This document shows, in pieces, positions 17,744 through 51,264 of a stretch of 64,000 nucleotides of DNA. The stretch is from Thermoplasmata archaeon (GTDB taxonomy: Archaea > Thermoplasmatota > Thermoplasmata > Lutacidiplasmatales > SKW197), in NCBI GenBank assembly GCA_038874435.1, contig JAVZCK010000003.1, positions 1-64,000 on the forward strand, read 5' to 3'. The notes beneath the pieces were generated by a model that worked only from the letters and a program-made list of their open reading frames with translations, ran no database searches and was not told where the DNA came from. Made by a program: the position numbers and the translations under genes. Each line of letters begins with the position of its first letter. The first letter of the stretch is position 1.

Positions 17744-17803
17744 AGCTAAAATTAAATATCTACTGTGGTTATGGGGCCAATAACTCTTATGCAGAAATGG
17801 CAT

Positions 17804-17901
17804 GCCGAGGTGGCCCAGCCCGGGACGGCGCAAGCCTGGAGACACTGGCCAGCAAGCTTGTGGGTCTTGTACCCTCGGGAGTTCAAATCTCCCCCTCGGC
17901 G
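17804..17901 (+). tRNA. tRNA-Ser(GGA) with a 13-nt intron
   Basis: Folded by hand: acceptor stem GCCGAGG (17804-17810) with CCTCGGC (17894-17900); D stem GCC/GGC (17813-17815, 17827-17829); anticodon stem CAAGC (17831-17835) with GCTTG (17856-17860); long variable arm GGGT/ACCC (17862-17865, 17871-17874); T stem GGGAG/CTCCC around TTCAAAT. The anticodon loop is interrupted: removing 17842-17854 restores a standard 7-nt loop CTGGAGA with anticodon GGA at 17838-17840. Flanking CTGG/CCAG pairing and 3-nt bulges (AGA, CAA) fit a relaxed bulge-helix motif for splicing endonuclease. The long variable arm and G73 discriminator at 17901 fit serine. CCA is not encoded. Confidence 0.93.
17842..17854 (+). 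other. tRNA-Ser intron at position 37/38
   Basis: Thirteen nucleotides between G37 and A38. The 4-bp helix CTGG (17836-17839) with CCAG (17849-17852) and the bulges AGA (17840-17842) and CAA (17853-17855) place both cuts after the second bulge nucleotide, giving exactly this excision. Confidence 0.85.
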
Positions 17902-17919
17902 TCCCAGTGGTTTTAGAGA

Positions 17920-37664: not shown

Positions 37665-40436
37665 TTACAATGTCTCAATTTCTTTCCTAACCCTTTCCAC
37701 CCAGTTCTTATTCCCAATTTTTTCAAAAAATGCCAGTGCCTTCTCAAGCAACGCCTTGTCTTTTCTTATTTTTCCGAGCTCGAATAATGTTTTATGATAC
37801 TCCATATCTAAGATTCCAGTTCTTTCGTAAATTTCAATTGACTTTTTCAGTTCTACCTCTGCTTTTGCTGCCTCTCCTTCCGCAACAAGCAGTTCGCCCA
37901 AAATCTGGTAAAACAGGGCCTCATGTTCTTTCATTGAAATCTCATCCAGTATTGTTCTTGCCTCTTCAAGGTACTTTTTACTGGCAATGGTATCATTCAA
38001 TCCTAAATAACACTCTACGACACCAAGCAAACTCTTGCACATCTCTCCTTTTTCCCCAATTTCTTTTCGTATCTCGCAGCTTTTTTTGTAAAACTCAAGT
38101 GCCTTTTCGTATTCTTCCTTATTCCGGTAAACTTCACCGAGTCCATAGTATGCCCATCCAATCCCATCCACATCCCAGATTTTTTCTTTCAATTCCAAGC
38201 TTTTTGTGAACAGGTCCAGTGCCTTCTCATAGTCGCCTTTCACAACATAGATAGCTCCAATGTTAAAATATGTTGAGGATGTGCCCCAGACCTCTCCGAT
38301 TTTCTCAAACAATTCTATGCTTCTTCTATAGAACTCCAGTGCCTTCTCGTAGTTACCCTTGTGATGGTAAAGAAGTCCAATGTTGTTGCACGAAGTTGAA
38401 ATCCCTGAGAGGTCCCCTAATTTTTCCTTCAATTCCAAGCTTTTCGTCAAAAACTCCAGTGCCTTCTCATAGTCCCCTTTGTCTTGGCAAGTAACTCCAA
38501 TGTTGTTATATGTTCTGGCGATGCCAGAAAGGTCGCCTATTTTTCTGTACAATTCCAAGCTTTTTCTCAAGAATTCCAGTGCCTTCTCGTAATCTCCTTT
38601 ATCGCCCAAGACATTCCCTATGTTGTTGTATGCCCCAGCCATCCCACGCAAATCACCAGTTTTTTCACGAAATTCGAGTGCCCTCCTGTACATCTCAAGG
38701 GCTTTGTCAAACTCTCCGAGATACCAGTAACATGTTCCAATTCTATGAACTGCGTTTCCTTGCTCCCACTCCGCATTCAAACGCTCGAACACAGCATTTG
38801 CCTTCTCCTCCAGTTCAATTGCTTTCTTGTATTCACCCTTGCGGGTATATACAACCCCTTTTTCACTCCAGGCTCTTGCAAGCTCAAGTTCTCCACCTAC
38901 CACGCCAGAAAGAACTTGCTCTGCCTTCTCCACTTCTTCCAGTGCATTGTCGTAATCTCCTTTCTGGATGTAAATCTCACATCTGCTCCTGTAACTCTTA
39001 CCTATCTCTACAGGTTGTTCTGGGGTTAGGTGTGTAATTCTAATTTTAAGAGTTTCAAGTGCATCGTCATACCTGCCAGCAATCTCAAGAACCTCTGCAA
39101 GGTCCCAGAGGAGTTCGACTTTCTGGGAAGCTTCTTCTGGAGCATCACCTAGTACTTCTATGGCACCCTGCAGAAACTCGATTGCCTCATCATTTGCAAA
39201 TCTTTTTGCAGCACTTTTCCCTGCTTTCACGGCGTACTCCACAAATTTATCTTTATTGTGGCACGCCCTGTAATGATATGCTAGTGCACTCCAGAATTTT
39301 TCATCGCCACCATGATACTTCTCTATCACTTCACCCGCCTTCTGGTGCATGATTCTTTTTCGTGAAGCACTTAACTCTCCATAGACAACTTCATGAGAAG
39401 TGTTGCTTGCAAATCTATAGCCCTCCTCAACCTCATCTGTCTCAAAAAGAAAGTGTTGGAGAATCAGTTCATCTATACAATCCAAGAGTTCTTCCTCGGC
39501 TATGTCCACGAGCTCTTTCAATACCCTGTACTCAAAAACCCTTCCCAGGATTGCTCCGGTAACCAAAACCTTCCTTGATTTTTCACTCAGTTTTGAGATA
39601 CGGAACTTTACGATTTCCTTAATGCTTGGAGGCAAGGCCATCTTTTTTATGTTTTCTATGTCCTTAACTCCCATACTCTTCATTGCAGCCAGAAATTCAA
39701 CTGTAAAAAACAAATGCCCTGAAGTTCTTTCGTGAATGTACTTTGCTATTTCCTCAGATTCTTCAAATCCCAATTGCTCGACAATCAACTGTATCTCTTC
39801 TTTACCCAAACTCTCCGGTTTCAAAAGAGTGTACAGGCGTTCAATATTCATATTTTTCAGTGTTTTGGCAAGCGAAGTGTCTCCACTAGCATAATCCTCC
39901 ACATAAGCAGCAAGGGCAATGATTCTCTCCTTCTTTATGTTTCTTGCAAGATAGTGAAAGAATGCAAGAGTTGCAGAGTCAGCATAATGCAGGTCATCAA
40001 TGACAAAAAGCACTGGTTGCCTTTTTGAAATTTCAAGAAACTGCTTAAACAGATGCTCAAGGGCTCTTGTTCGCTCTTTTGAAAGCCCATTTGGATTTCT
40101 CTCCTCCACCTCAAAACTCTGAAAGCCCGCAAGTCCGATTGGAATGTATGTTTCTGTTTGCTCTGAAACTTTTTTGGCATATTTTTCAAGGGCTGAAAGC
40201 ACTGGCAAATAAGCGGGTTCGTTGTTTCCAACACAGCTCGAGTAAAGTACAACAAAGTCCTCTTGTGCACAAATCTCCGTAAACTCTTCAGCAAGCCGTG
40301 TTTTTCCAATTCCTGCTTCGCCAGTAATTAAAATAGTGCTTCCTCTTCCTTCCTTGCAATCATTCATTGCTTTTCTGAGAATGGCAATTTCCTTTTCTCT
40401 GTCCGCAAAAATTGGAGGAAATTTTTTTGTTTCCAC
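37665..40436 (-). CDS. STAND-like AAA ATPase with C-terminal TPR repeats
   Basis: A 923-residue signal-transduction type ATPase. N-terminal AAA_16-like module: FADREKEIAILRKAM, Walker A GEAGIGKTRLAEEF at about 39-52, Walker B PVLFVIDDLHYAD at 141-153. A helical winged region follows (VLVTGAILGRVFEYRVLKEL), as in MalT-like regulators. Residues about 410-880 hold ten or more TPRs; five consecutive ones are exact 40-residue units with the phrase GDYEKALEF(L/Y), seen in DNA as a 120-bp period (repeated units begin near 38101, 38221, 38341, 38461 and 38581). No DNA-binding domain is seen at either end, so it may be a sensor or scaffold. The start is a GTG with a TATA box about 23 nt upstream (about 40455-40463), so probably leaderless. 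The paralogue at 48.2-51.3 kb carries an extra inserted domain. Confidence 0.82.
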   Translation of the reverse strand: METKKFPPIFADREKEIAILRKAMNDCKEGRGSTILITGEAGIGKTRLAEEFTEICAQEDFVVLYSSCVGNNEPAYLPVLSALEKYAKKVSEQTETYIPIGLAGFQSFEVEERNPNGLSKERTRALEHLFKQFLEISKRQPVLFVIDDLHYADSATLAFFHYLARNIKKERIIALAAYVEDYASGDTSLAKTLKNMNIERLYTLLKPESLGKEEIQLIVEQLGFEESEEIAKYIHERTSGHLFFTVEFLAAMKSMGVKDIENIKKMALPPSIKEIVKFRISKLSEKSRKVLVTGAILGRVFEYRVLKELVDIAEEELLDCIDELILQHFLFETDEVEEGYRFASNTSHEVVYGELSASRKRIMHQKAGEVIEKYHGGDEKFWSALAYHYRACHNKDKFVEYAVKAGKSAAKRFANDEAIEFLQGAIEVLGDAPEEASQKVELLWDLAEVLEIAGRYDDALETLKIRITHLTPEQPVEIGKSYRSRCEIYIQKGDYDNALEEVEKAEQVLSGVVGGELELARAWSEKGVVYTRKGEYKKAIELEEKANAVFERLNAEWEQGNAVHRIGTCYWYLGEFDKALEMYRRALEFREKTGDLRGMAGAYNNIGNVLGDKGDYEKALEFLRKSLELYRKIGDLSGIARTYNNIGVTCQDKGDYEKALEFLTKSLELKEKLGDLSGISTSCNNIGLLYHHKGNYEKALEFYRRSIELFEKIGEVWGTSSTYFNIGAIYVVKGDYEKALDLFTKSLELKEKIWDVDGIGWAYYGLGEVYRNKEEYEKALEFYKKSCEIRKEIGEKGEMCKSLLGVVECYLGLNDTIASKKYLEEARTILDEISMKEHEALFYQILGELLVAEGEAAKAEVELKKSIEIYERTGILDMEYHKTLFELGKIRKDKALLEKALAFFEKIGNKNWVERVRKEIETL

Positions 40437-48119: not shown

Positions 48120-48222
48120 TGGTTTGTGGAACAAATACAATTTAGTCGGAATTAACTTGAGATTGGAGCATAAGCATGCAAATTGATAAATATCTAATTT
48201 CAATATAGTGAGATGAGTGTCC

Positions 48223-51200
48223 ATGCTACATTTACCACCAGAATTTGTTGCAAGGGATCAAGAGTTTGCGTTTCTGAAGCAGAAGCTTGAGAAGGCAGGG
48301 CAGAAAACTGGCTCAACCATTTTTATTGCTGGCGAGAGTGGAGTGGGCAAGACACGGCTCGTTGAGGAATTGATTTCTGTTGCTGAAAAACAGGGCTTCC
48401 AGGTGTTCAGAGGCCAATGCTTTCTTGAGTCCCTGGCACCCTACACACCTATTTCCGCGGTGCTGAGAGATGCAGGGCTGGACCATCTGCTCACAGAAAC
48501 AAAACCGCTAAGACTTGAGGCACTCTATGCTGTGAACAAGGGCGGTGTGATTGTGGCCAAACATGAAAGGCTTGAAGCCCTTGATGCTGACATTTTCATG
48601 GGGATGGTGACAGCAGTTGAAACCTTTGTGAAGGACTCTGTTTCCCAGATGCAGAAAAAAGAAGCGAGAGAGGAGATTGGCCACATGGGTTATGGGAATT
48701 TTTTCATCACGAATGTACCTGGCAAGTTGCTGAACCTTGTTGCAGTAACCACAGGTAGAGAGAACGAGTATCTGATTTCAGAGATGCGGGAGTTGCTGGA
48801 GAGAATTGAGAAGGAGTTTGCTAGTGCAATTTCAAGCAGCCAAGGGACACAGATTGCTGGGATTGAAGAGCGGCTCAAGGGATTGTTTCTCACAGGAAAG
48901 TACGAGGGCATTGATTATGCTGAAGATGATGTAAGGATAAGGCAGGCAAATTTGCTTGAGAATGTAACAAGAGGATTGCAGCGAATATCTAAGCAGAAGC
49001 CAGTGCTGATATTCATTGATGATTTGCAATGGAGCGACCCCTCAAGTTTAGCAATGCTGCACTATATAGCAAGAAACACGAGGAAAAATGCGGTGCTCGT
49101 TCTTGGGGCATACAGAAGCGAGGAAATTGTGACAAGGTATGATGGTAAGGTTCACCAGCTCGTTGAGGCAATGGAGAAAATGGAGAAGGAAGAGTTGCTC
49201 GAGAAGATTGAGTTGAAACGGCTGGACAAGGAAGGATGCCATACGCTCATCTGCAGAGTTCTCGGCACTGAAATAAACCCAGAATTCACAGAAAAGATTT
49301 ACACCGAGACAGAGGGCAACACCTTTTTTGTGATTGAAATTCTGAAGAACCTATACGAGGAGAAACAACTGTATTTTGACAGGGGCGAGTGGCATTACAA
49401 CTTAGCAACAATGCAGATTCCGAAGAGAATCTACGAGGTCGTGCTTAGACGCTTGCAGCGACTGGCAAGGGAGGAGAGAGAATTGCTGGATGCAGCAAGT
49501 GTGCTTGGTGAGGAATTCACCTCAAATATTCTTGCCAGAATTACAGAGATGAACCGTGTGCGGGTTGTGAAATTACTTCTGAACATAGAGAGGATTCACA
49601 AGTTAATCAAGGCACTGAGAGAAAAATACCGCTTTGAGCATGCAAAAATTCGAGAAGTGCTTTATGCAGAGCTTGGCGAGGAGCTAAAAACCCTCTATCA
49701 TGAGATTGCCGGGAAAATGCTTGAGGAGGAATACAGGGAAGGGAAGGCGGAGGTGGCAGGGGACATTGTTTACCACTACAGCAAGGCGGGAAATCGGGAG
49801 AAAGTGATAGAGTATGGACTGCCTGCAGGGAAACTTGCAAAGGAAAGATTTGCAAATGAAGATGCAATCAAGTTCTACAAGGCAGTGCTAGAAGCAATGG
49901 GAGATGAAGCTGGCTACAAAGAACTGAGGATGCAGGTGCTGGAGGAGCTTGGAGAGGTGCTAGAGCTGACTGGAAACTATGATGAGGCATTGGTTGTTCT
50001 TAAAATTTGGATAGCAGAGCTGATAACAGAAAAACCTGTTGAGGCGGGAGTAATCTCCAGAAAGCGGTGCGAGATTTACATTCAAAAAGGAGAATACGAG
50101 AAAGCAATGGCTGAAGTAGAGCGAGGGGAGCAACTGCTTACTGGTGTAGAAAAAGGAAGGATTGAACTTGCAAGGGTATGGGGTGTAAAAGGCTTGGTTT
50201 ACGAGCGAAAAGGGGAGTACGAAAAGGCAATAGAGTGGCAGGAGAAAGCCTATGAAGTGTTTGAAAAGGCAAATGTAGAGAAAGAGATGGCAAGTACAAT
50301 CCATAGAATTGGAACATGTTACTGGTATCTCGGAGAGTACGAAAAAGCAATGGAGTTTTATTCAAAAGCCCTGACAATACGTGAGAGAAGAGGGGATTTG
50401 CGTGAACTAGCAGGAACTTACAATGGCATGGGAGTTCTCTATCACGACAAGGGCGACTATGAGAAGGCACTGTGGTTCTACACAAAGAGCCAAGAATTGA
50501 TGGAGAAAATCGGGGATGTGTGGGGCATTGCAACTTCCTACAACAACATTGGAATTCTCTATCAGGACAAAGGAGAATACGAGAAGGCACTGTGTTTTTA
50601 CACAAAGAGTATGGAATTGAGAGAGAAAATTGGTGACGTGAGGGGAATTGCAAGTTCCTATAACAATATAGGCCTTATCTATCACGAGAAAGGAGAATAC
50701 GAGAATGCACTAGTATTTTACACAAAGAGCCTGGAATTGATGGAGAAAATCGGAAATCTAAGGGGGATTGCGATTTCTTACAACACCATAGGACTTCTCT
50801 ATTACGACGAGGGAGAGTACGATAAGGCACTAGAGTATCACACAAAAGGCATTGAGCTTGCTGGAAAAATTGGGGATAAATCAACATTGTGCAAGGGGAT
50901 GCTGGCGATGGTGGAGTGTTTTCTTGCATTAAAAGATTTTGAGAGCTGCAGAAAAACTCTGGAGGAGGCAAAGGGAATTGTTAGCGAGCTCGGTTTGAAA
51001 GAACTGGAAGGTGTTTTCCTTGCTGTATCAGGTAAACTTCTTGCTGCAGAGGGTAATGTGACTGAGGGGAACGAAGCCCTAGCAAAGGCAGTTGAGATTT
51101 ACGAAAGTATTGGCAAACTGGATATAGATTACTACAAGGCTTTGTTTGAACTCGCGAAGCTTCGGAAGGACAAGGGGTTGCTGGACAAAGCACTGGCTTT

Positions 51201-51264
51201 CTTTGAGAAGATTGGGAACAAGGAATGGGAGGAGAAGGCGAGAGCGGAGATTGGGAAGGTATAG
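48223..51264 (+). CDS. STAND-like AAA ATPase with inserted sensor-like domain and TPR repeats
   Basis: Paralogue of the ATPase at 37.7-40.4 kb, 1013 residues. Walker A GESGVGKTRLVEEL at about 37-50, Walker B PVLIFIDDLQWSD at about 260-272. Between them, about residues 96-203, is an extra domain absent from the paralogue: LEALYAVNKGGVIVAKHE, then ALDADIFMGMVTAVETFVKD, MGYGNFFITNVPGK and LLNLVAVTTGRENE, and a long helix. The strand-helix-strand order and the DADIFxGMxTAVxxFVKD phrase resemble roadblock/longin-like sensor modules of archaeal proteins (inference). A winged helical region (VLGEEFTSNILARITEM) is followed by about nine TPRs from residue 560 on. At least four of these are near-identical 40-residue units with a 120-bp period (50461, 50581, 50701, 50821). 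No DNA-binding motif is seen. Start ATG 48223, alternative GTG 48217. Confidence 0.82.
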   Translation: MLHLPPEFVARDQEFAFLKQKLEKAGQKTGSTIFIAGESGVGKTRLVEELISVAEKQGFQVFRGQCFLESLAPYTPISAVLRDAGLDHLLTETKPLRLEALYAVNKGGVIVAKHERLEALDADIFMGMVTAVETFVKDSVSQMQKKEAREEIGHMGYGNFFITNVPGKLLNLVAVTTGRENEYLISEMRELLERIEKEFASAISSSQGTQIAGIEERLKGLFLTGKYEGIDYAEDDVRIRQANLLENVTRGLQRISKQKPVLIFIDDLQWSDPSSLAMLHYIARNTRKNAVLVLGAYRSEEIVTRYDGKVHQLVEAMEKMEKEELLEKIELKRLDKEGCHTLICRVLGTEINPEFTEKIYTETEGNTFFVIEILKNLYEEKQLYFDRGEWHYNLATMQIPKRIYEVVLRRLQRLAREERELLDAASVLGEEFTSNILARITEMNRVRVVKLLLNIERIHKLIKALREKYRFEHAKIREVLYAELGEELKTLYHEIAGKMLEEEYREGKAEVAGDIVYHYSKAGNREKVIEYGLPAGKLAKERFANEDAIKFYKAVLEAMGDEAGYKELRMQVLEELGEVLELTGNYDEALVVLKIWIAELITEKPVEAGVISRKRCEIYIQKGEYEKAMAEVERGEQLLTGVEKGRIELARVWGVKGLVYERKGEYEKAIEWQEKAYEVFEKANVEKEMASTIHRIGTCYWYLGEYEKAMEFYSKALTIRERRGDLRELAGTYNGMGVLYHDKGDYEKALWFYTKSQELMEKIGDVWGIATSYNNIGILYQDKGEYEKALCFYTKSMELREKIGDVRGIASSYNNIGLIYHEKGEYENALVFYTKSLELMEKIGNLRGIAISYNTIGLLYYDEGEYDKALEYHTKGIELAGKIGDKSTLCKGMLAMVECFLALKDFESCRKTLEEAKGIVSELGLKELEGVFLAVSGKLLAAEGNVTEGNEALAKAVEIYESIGKLDIDYYKALFELAKLRKDKGLLDKALAFFEKIGNKEWEEKARAEIGKV

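Follow-up and report, generated by a model that had tools for sequence, protein, structure and literature searches.

The window analysed here, a single stretch of DNA of 64,000 nt, contains at 48217–51264 on the forward strand an open reading frame with a GTG start whose 1015-aa product, P0001, has Pfam matches to AAA_16 and TPR and is a STAND-type ATPase with a longin-like insertion and a TPR array (residues ~620–1002, 50074–51222; Pfam and PDB sequence matches). A paralogue without the insertion, P0002 (923 aa, 37665–40436, reverse strand), was identified by its reading frame, its Pfam AAA_16 and TPR matches and the positions of its motifs. Walker A occupies residues 39–46 in both proteins (GESGVGKT in P0001, 48331–48354), whereas the first Walker B aspartate is residue 268 in P0001 and residue 147 in P0002, and the distance from the Walker A lysine to this aspartate is 223 residues in the former and 102 in the latter, an excess of 121. 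The Walker B strand of P0001 with its acidic pair (VLIFIDD, residues 263–269; 49003–49023) was placed by motif position and coincides with a modelled strand at residues 263–268. A first-pass annotation of this DNA had reported extra residues between the two motifs and their absence from the paralogue; both observations hold, although the excess is larger than the ~107 residues it gave. Its interval, 48508–48837 (residues 98–207), is close to the domain as we delimit it with AlphaFold, Foldseek, alignment A4 and a controlled hhalign comparison (residues ~99–225; 48511–48891), but misses the last helix, a3 (residues 210–225).

STAND ATPases are marked by a GRxxE-type motif, Walker A, an acidic Walker B, a T.R motif after strand 4, and a GxP motif near the winged helix. 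An alignment of 44 nucleotide-binding domains from many genera (A3) displays these hallmarks, with R13, Walker A (G39, G42, G44 and K45) and G367 invariant and D269 and R300 nearly so; its consensus includes VGR..EL, GTYRPED and EGNPLF, and P0001 itself has GNT where the consensus has GNP. Alignment A3 gave no match at 1e-5 to the sequences of solved nucleotide-binding domains, and a Foldseek search with the model of the whole domain put RuvBL1/2 on top with a TM-score of only ~0.3; the core was not placed more finely.

AlphaFold modelling of the insertion together with 33 homologues (pLDDT 79.8) predicts two strands, a helix, three strands and two helices, a five-stranded domain whose elements follow the longin order. 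By DSSP of the model, helix a1 spans residues 124–147 (48586–48657) and in alignment A4 carries the most conserved motif of the family, D.DIF..M..AV..FV.DS; strands b3–b5 span residues 155–179 (48679–48753), and the C-terminal helices a2 and a3 residues 184–205 and 210–225 (48766–48891). In a second model, of P0001 residues 1–472 (pLDDT 87.3), the AAA core is intact around the insertion, which is placed between a helix at residues 77–85, after core strand b2, and a helix at residues 239–260, before Walker B. The sheet of AAA+ and STAND proteins has the order 5-1-4-3-2, and the b2-to-a2 crossover is at its far edge. In the predicted structure the insertion thus sits in the nucleotide-binding domain between strand b2 and helix a2 of the core and not in the ATP pocket, which contradicts the proposal of the first-pass annotation that it is planted within the nucleotide-binding site. 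Neither is the placement as unusual as had been supposed, since the OB-fold domain II of RuvBL1/2 also lies between Walker A and Walker B (PMC6137109), and the position alone is therefore not new. In RuvBL1/2 as in P0001 a whole domain is inserted at an equivalent stretch of a P-loop ATPase; however, the inserted fold is different, and RuvBL proteins are hexameric AAA+ ATPases that lack a TPR array.

When the modelled insertion was compared with the PDB using Foldseek, the matches were to Ragulator/LAMTOR roadblock subunits, AP2 sigma, the Vamp7 longin domain, COPI zeta, an Asgard roadblock protein and MglB, with E-values down to 1.9e-4 and TM-scores up to ~0.6. The prediction has the sheet flanked by helices, with longin or roadblock connectivity, that characterises the roadblock/longin superfamily. 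Single-sequence searches of Pfam, NCBIfam and PDB with the insertion gave no match, and no Pfam or NCBIfam family matched the domain in profile searches; only two of 33 domain members reach PF03259 (Robl_LC7), with a best E-value of 0.1, below the gathering threshold. Sequence homology to a member family is nonetheless detectable, as hhalign aligns A4 with a profile of archaeal Robl_LC7 (22 proteins from seven genomes of the phylum) over 103 columns with a probability of 92.5 and an E-value of 4.8e-7, versus best E-values of 0.056 for 20 column-shuffled copies, 0.17 for a reversed copy and 0.13 for a Ras profile.

Because the predicted fold and the profile alignment, with controls at 0.056 or above, point the same way, we assign the domain to the roadblock/longin superfamily, in the longin arrangement and outside Robl_LC7 in the strict sense, an assignment that rests on models and alignments. 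Strict Robl_LC7 membership was rejected on the sub-threshold Pfam score and on the lack of a helix before the first strand; the modelled insertion opens with strands and closes with two helices, and it is the N-terminal helix that separates the roadblock from the longin arrangement (PMC10933270). A separate domain of roadblock/longin type had been suggested in the first-pass annotation, with structure prediction and a structure-based search as the means of checking it, and the longin-order model, the PDB matches and the alignment to Robl_LC7 agree with that suggestion. With Roadblock/LC7 domains (PF03259; MglB, LAMTOR2/3) the insertion shares a superfamily, as both the fold search and the profile alignment show, and a tendency of its genes to adjoin those of Ras-like GTPases, as MglB does MglA; it differs in lacking the N-terminal helix, in having an extra C-terminal helix, in scoring below threshold in Pfam, and in residing within an ATPase rather than standing alone as a small protein. 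Longin domains (AP sigma, Vamp7, TRAPP, DENN) have the identical order of elements and are matched by Foldseek, but the insertion has no sequence match to them, is archaeal, lies within an ATPase core and has no known tie to membrane traffic. AAA+ proteins vary in their b2–a2 region, which is frequently extended, as would suit an ordinary helical elaboration with no fold of its own. That explanation is hardly credible and was rejected, being already contradicted by a five-stranded model with kinship to Robl_LC7 and by the occurrence of the domain outside ATPases, in a 312-aa protein with TPRs (L018) and on the tails of receptors.

The genome that encodes P0001 (2.16 Mb in 43 contigs) has ten copies of the segment, nine of them in AAA_16-TPR proteins and at the same site. 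The tenth (G000:C3:89844-90245; L018 2925–3860, reverse strand) is in the 312-aa protein, which consists of the domain and a short TPR stretch with no P-loop, and is the only copy found outside an ATPase in this genome. More than 30 AAA_16-TPR genes are present, most of them without the insertion; the expansion is similar in a sister genome (G001), and in the remaining genomes searched most such genes carry the insertion. Nine copies of the domain were found in G001, and it is present in 135 of 300 genomes drawn from the class and in 50 of 390 drawn from the phylum, the two draws overlapping. Scanning 84,980 species genomes yielded 74 loci with archaeal titles, which name Thermoplasmata, Methanomassiliicoccales, DHVE2, Aciduliprofundum and similar, or merely Euryarchaeota or archaeon; the scan patterns were derived from the AAA-inserted form, and occurrence in other phyla is therefore possible. 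The insertion begins ~51 residues past Walker A in alignment A3, and the same spacing separates Walker A from the domain in nearly all AAA loci examined. Conservation in other genomes, which the first-pass annotation had named as a further check, thus extends at the same site across Thermoplasmata. That the feature is peculiar to the P0001 gene was rejected on the nine same-site copies in its own genome and those in other genera.

A tree of the ATPase core built without the insertion separates insert-bearing from insert-free rows with two changes, compared to a mean of 16.5 for shuffled labels, and 43 of the 44 insert-bearing rows form one cluster with moderate support. An insert-bearing row from another class (L126) falls outside the main cluster, among long insert-free branches. 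Because the insert-free rows come solely from P0001's own genome, a single insertion event is favoured by this tree but not proven; the sequence comparisons nevertheless indicate an ancient and widely distributed insertion in Thermoplasmata, with a single origin the favoured history. The insertion could instead be a functionless relic of domain shuffling, carried along by duplicating paralogues, and the >30 AAA_16-TPR paralogues of the genome, some of them broken, and a copy on contig C9 without much of the a1 motif are consistent with this. We regard it as very improbable, in view of the class-wide conservation at one site and the retention of the motif.

Genes for Ras-like GTPases adjoin insert-bearing STAND genes beyond what is expected by chance. 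P0001's own genome encodes seven Ras-like GTPases and three ordinary Robl_LC7 proteins. On contig C16 a Ras-like GTPase gene lies 252 bp upstream of an insert-bearing gene on the same strand, a pair that the sister genome G001 retains with a spacing of 281 bp; on contig C4 one lies behind an insert-bearing STAND gene with a single 249-aa gene between them. This intervening gene (L063 4814–5560, reverse strand, on G000:C4) has no Pfam match. HMM searches of the 74 named loci (L135–L208) found 11 GTPase genes, eight of which are 65 bp or less from an insert-bearing STAND gene (L163, L166, L167, L170, L180, L183, L184 and L187), the chance reference being the 5% of flank sequence that lies within 150 bp; several of the GTPase-adjacent loci share ancestry and are not independent cases. 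Three of the eight pairs (L163, L166 and L170) are convergent rather than co-directional, and together with the shared ancestry this makes the nominal probability of the adjacency too favourable. The GTPases of L180, L183, L184 and L187 are 58–84% identical, with the gene upstream of the STAND gene at two of these loci and downstream at the other two, a pattern that points to repeated association. The contrast within genus g1 is modest, with GTPase neighbours at 3 of 18 insert-bearing and 0 of ~44 insert-free STAND genes; among the matches listed, no insert-free STAND of P0001's genome or of G001 has a GTPase gene within 1 kb. On three complete chromosomes at least five copies of the domain are less than 1.5 kb from a GTPase gene among the matches listed, versus 0.43 under random shifts (p 0.0004), these five close pairs involving a terminal form of the domain and not the AAA-inserted form. 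For the majority of insert-bearing STAND genes, among them that of P0001, no GTPase gene lies alongside. There is none within the 64,000-nt window, and a partner of P0001 would therefore be encoded elsewhere, among the seven Ras-like genes of the genome.

Proteins that end in the terminal form have PKD, Ig-like or cadherin-like repeats, with one membrane span predicted ahead of the domain. Loci L223–L227, from other Thermoplasmata genomes, encode such repeat proteins of ~1000–2250 aa, with the domain at the presumed cytoplasmic end and Ras-like GTPase genes within 163 bp; they were picked for apparent GTPase adjacency and illustrate that arrangement rather than test it. It is conceivable, though doubtful, that receptors with PKD/Ig repeats and STAND proteins share a longin-like platform, with Ras-like GTPases passing between them and their state being read inside the STAND nucleotide-binding domain.

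For the most part, roadblock and longin domains form dimeric platforms that serve to exchange, activate or hold small GTPases (PMC10933270; PMC4316618), and the resting state of STANDs with a TPR sensor is a closed, ADP-bound one that ATP opens, leading to oligomerisation (PMC6468293). The longin/roadblock domain in the STAND nucleotide-binding domain is most likely a platform on which a Ras-like GTPase docks to set the state of the ATPase, a reading we hold with reasonable but limited confidence. The domain would have entered an AAA_16-TPR nucleotide-binding domain between b2 and a2, probably in a single event early in Thermoplasmata, and it would probably pair with another copy from an adjacent subunit, which is the usual behaviour of roadblock/longin domains. 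Docking of a Ras-like small GTPase would displace helix a2 of the core and its Walker B strand, b3, setting the ATPase to closed (ADP) or open (ATP, oligomerising), and the TPR array would read a second input or recruit a target. We infer GTPase docking, dimerisation of the insertion and coupling to ATP turnover; docking could bias the switch because the insertion lies on the crossover to helix a2 and the Walker B strand, the superfamily serves as a platform, and the STAND core is a switch. Insert-bearing ATPases may thus be under small-GTPase control, given that a platform-type domain is often encoded beside a Ras-like GTPase gene. Some longin domains bind no GTPases, and the three ordinary Robl_LC7 proteins of the genome could serve the GTPases instead.

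The main rival is that the insertion is chiefly a self-association module, whose copies pair between subunits and aid the STAND oligomer with no GTPase involved. Roadblock/longin domains are usually dimeric (PMC10933270), STANDs act through oligomerising (PMC6468293), RuvBL domain II mediates protein contacts from the same site (PMC6137109), and most insert-bearing genes have no GTPase neighbour. We nonetheless think it unlikely, as it leaves unexplained both the GTPase genes that abut insert-bearing genes and the same domain on receptor tails beside GTPases. The first-pass annotation had read the insertion as a small-molecule or peptide sensor reporting to the ATPase, and it is indeed a separate domain within the nucleotide-binding domain, and profilin-like folds are able to bind ligands. 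This is quite improbable; in the alignment the best conserved positions appear to form the helix motif with no obvious pocket, and the closest relatives by Foldseek are protein-binding platforms. Protein docking is likelier than ligand sensing, as the superfamily consists mostly of GTPase platforms (PMC10933270) and Ras-like GTPase genes adjoin.

If GTPase docking is correct, these proteins represent a STAND switch with a small-GTPase platform inside the ATPase core, in archaea outside Asgard. We know of no such insertion in MalT or PH0952. These STANDs with a TPR sensor resemble P0001 in having a nucleotide switch core followed by a TPR domain (PMC6468293). In Streptomyces conservons, which comprise a kinase, a roadblock protein, a DUF protein and a Ras-like GTPase (PMC4316618), a signalling unit likewise combines a roadblock-type module with a Ras-like GTPase, but the genes are separate and a histidine kinase takes the place of the STAND ATPase. 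Full-text literature searches, which covered few subscription journals, found no paper for STAND NTPases with roadblock and only Asgard papers for Thermoplasmata with roadblock and GTPase; a prior description may exist. The domain family is absent from the Pfam and NCBIfam versions searched, and it offers a route to study the role of the many Ras-like GTPases in Thermoplasmata and the links of small GTPases to archaeal ATPases and receptors.

PADLOC matches were limited to generic TPR entries and a weak one to mad8, and no defence-system assignment was made. Among the other copies in this genome, an insert-bearing STAND gene (L016; G000:C2:48-55.5 kb) is broken by a frame change close to Walker A and by an in-frame stop downstream of the winged-helix region, and is probably a pseudogene; another (L013; G000:C6:111.0-112.4 kb) stops at 468 aa, before the TPR array, near a contig end. 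Two or more insert-bearing STAND genes stand in tandem in L141, L143, L151, L162, L167, L171 and L200, and an array of seven or more occupies G078:C19:19-43 kb. Elsewhere in the window, at 17803–17904, there is a tRNA-Val(GAC) gene of 102 bases, which is longer than usual and perhaps contains an intron.
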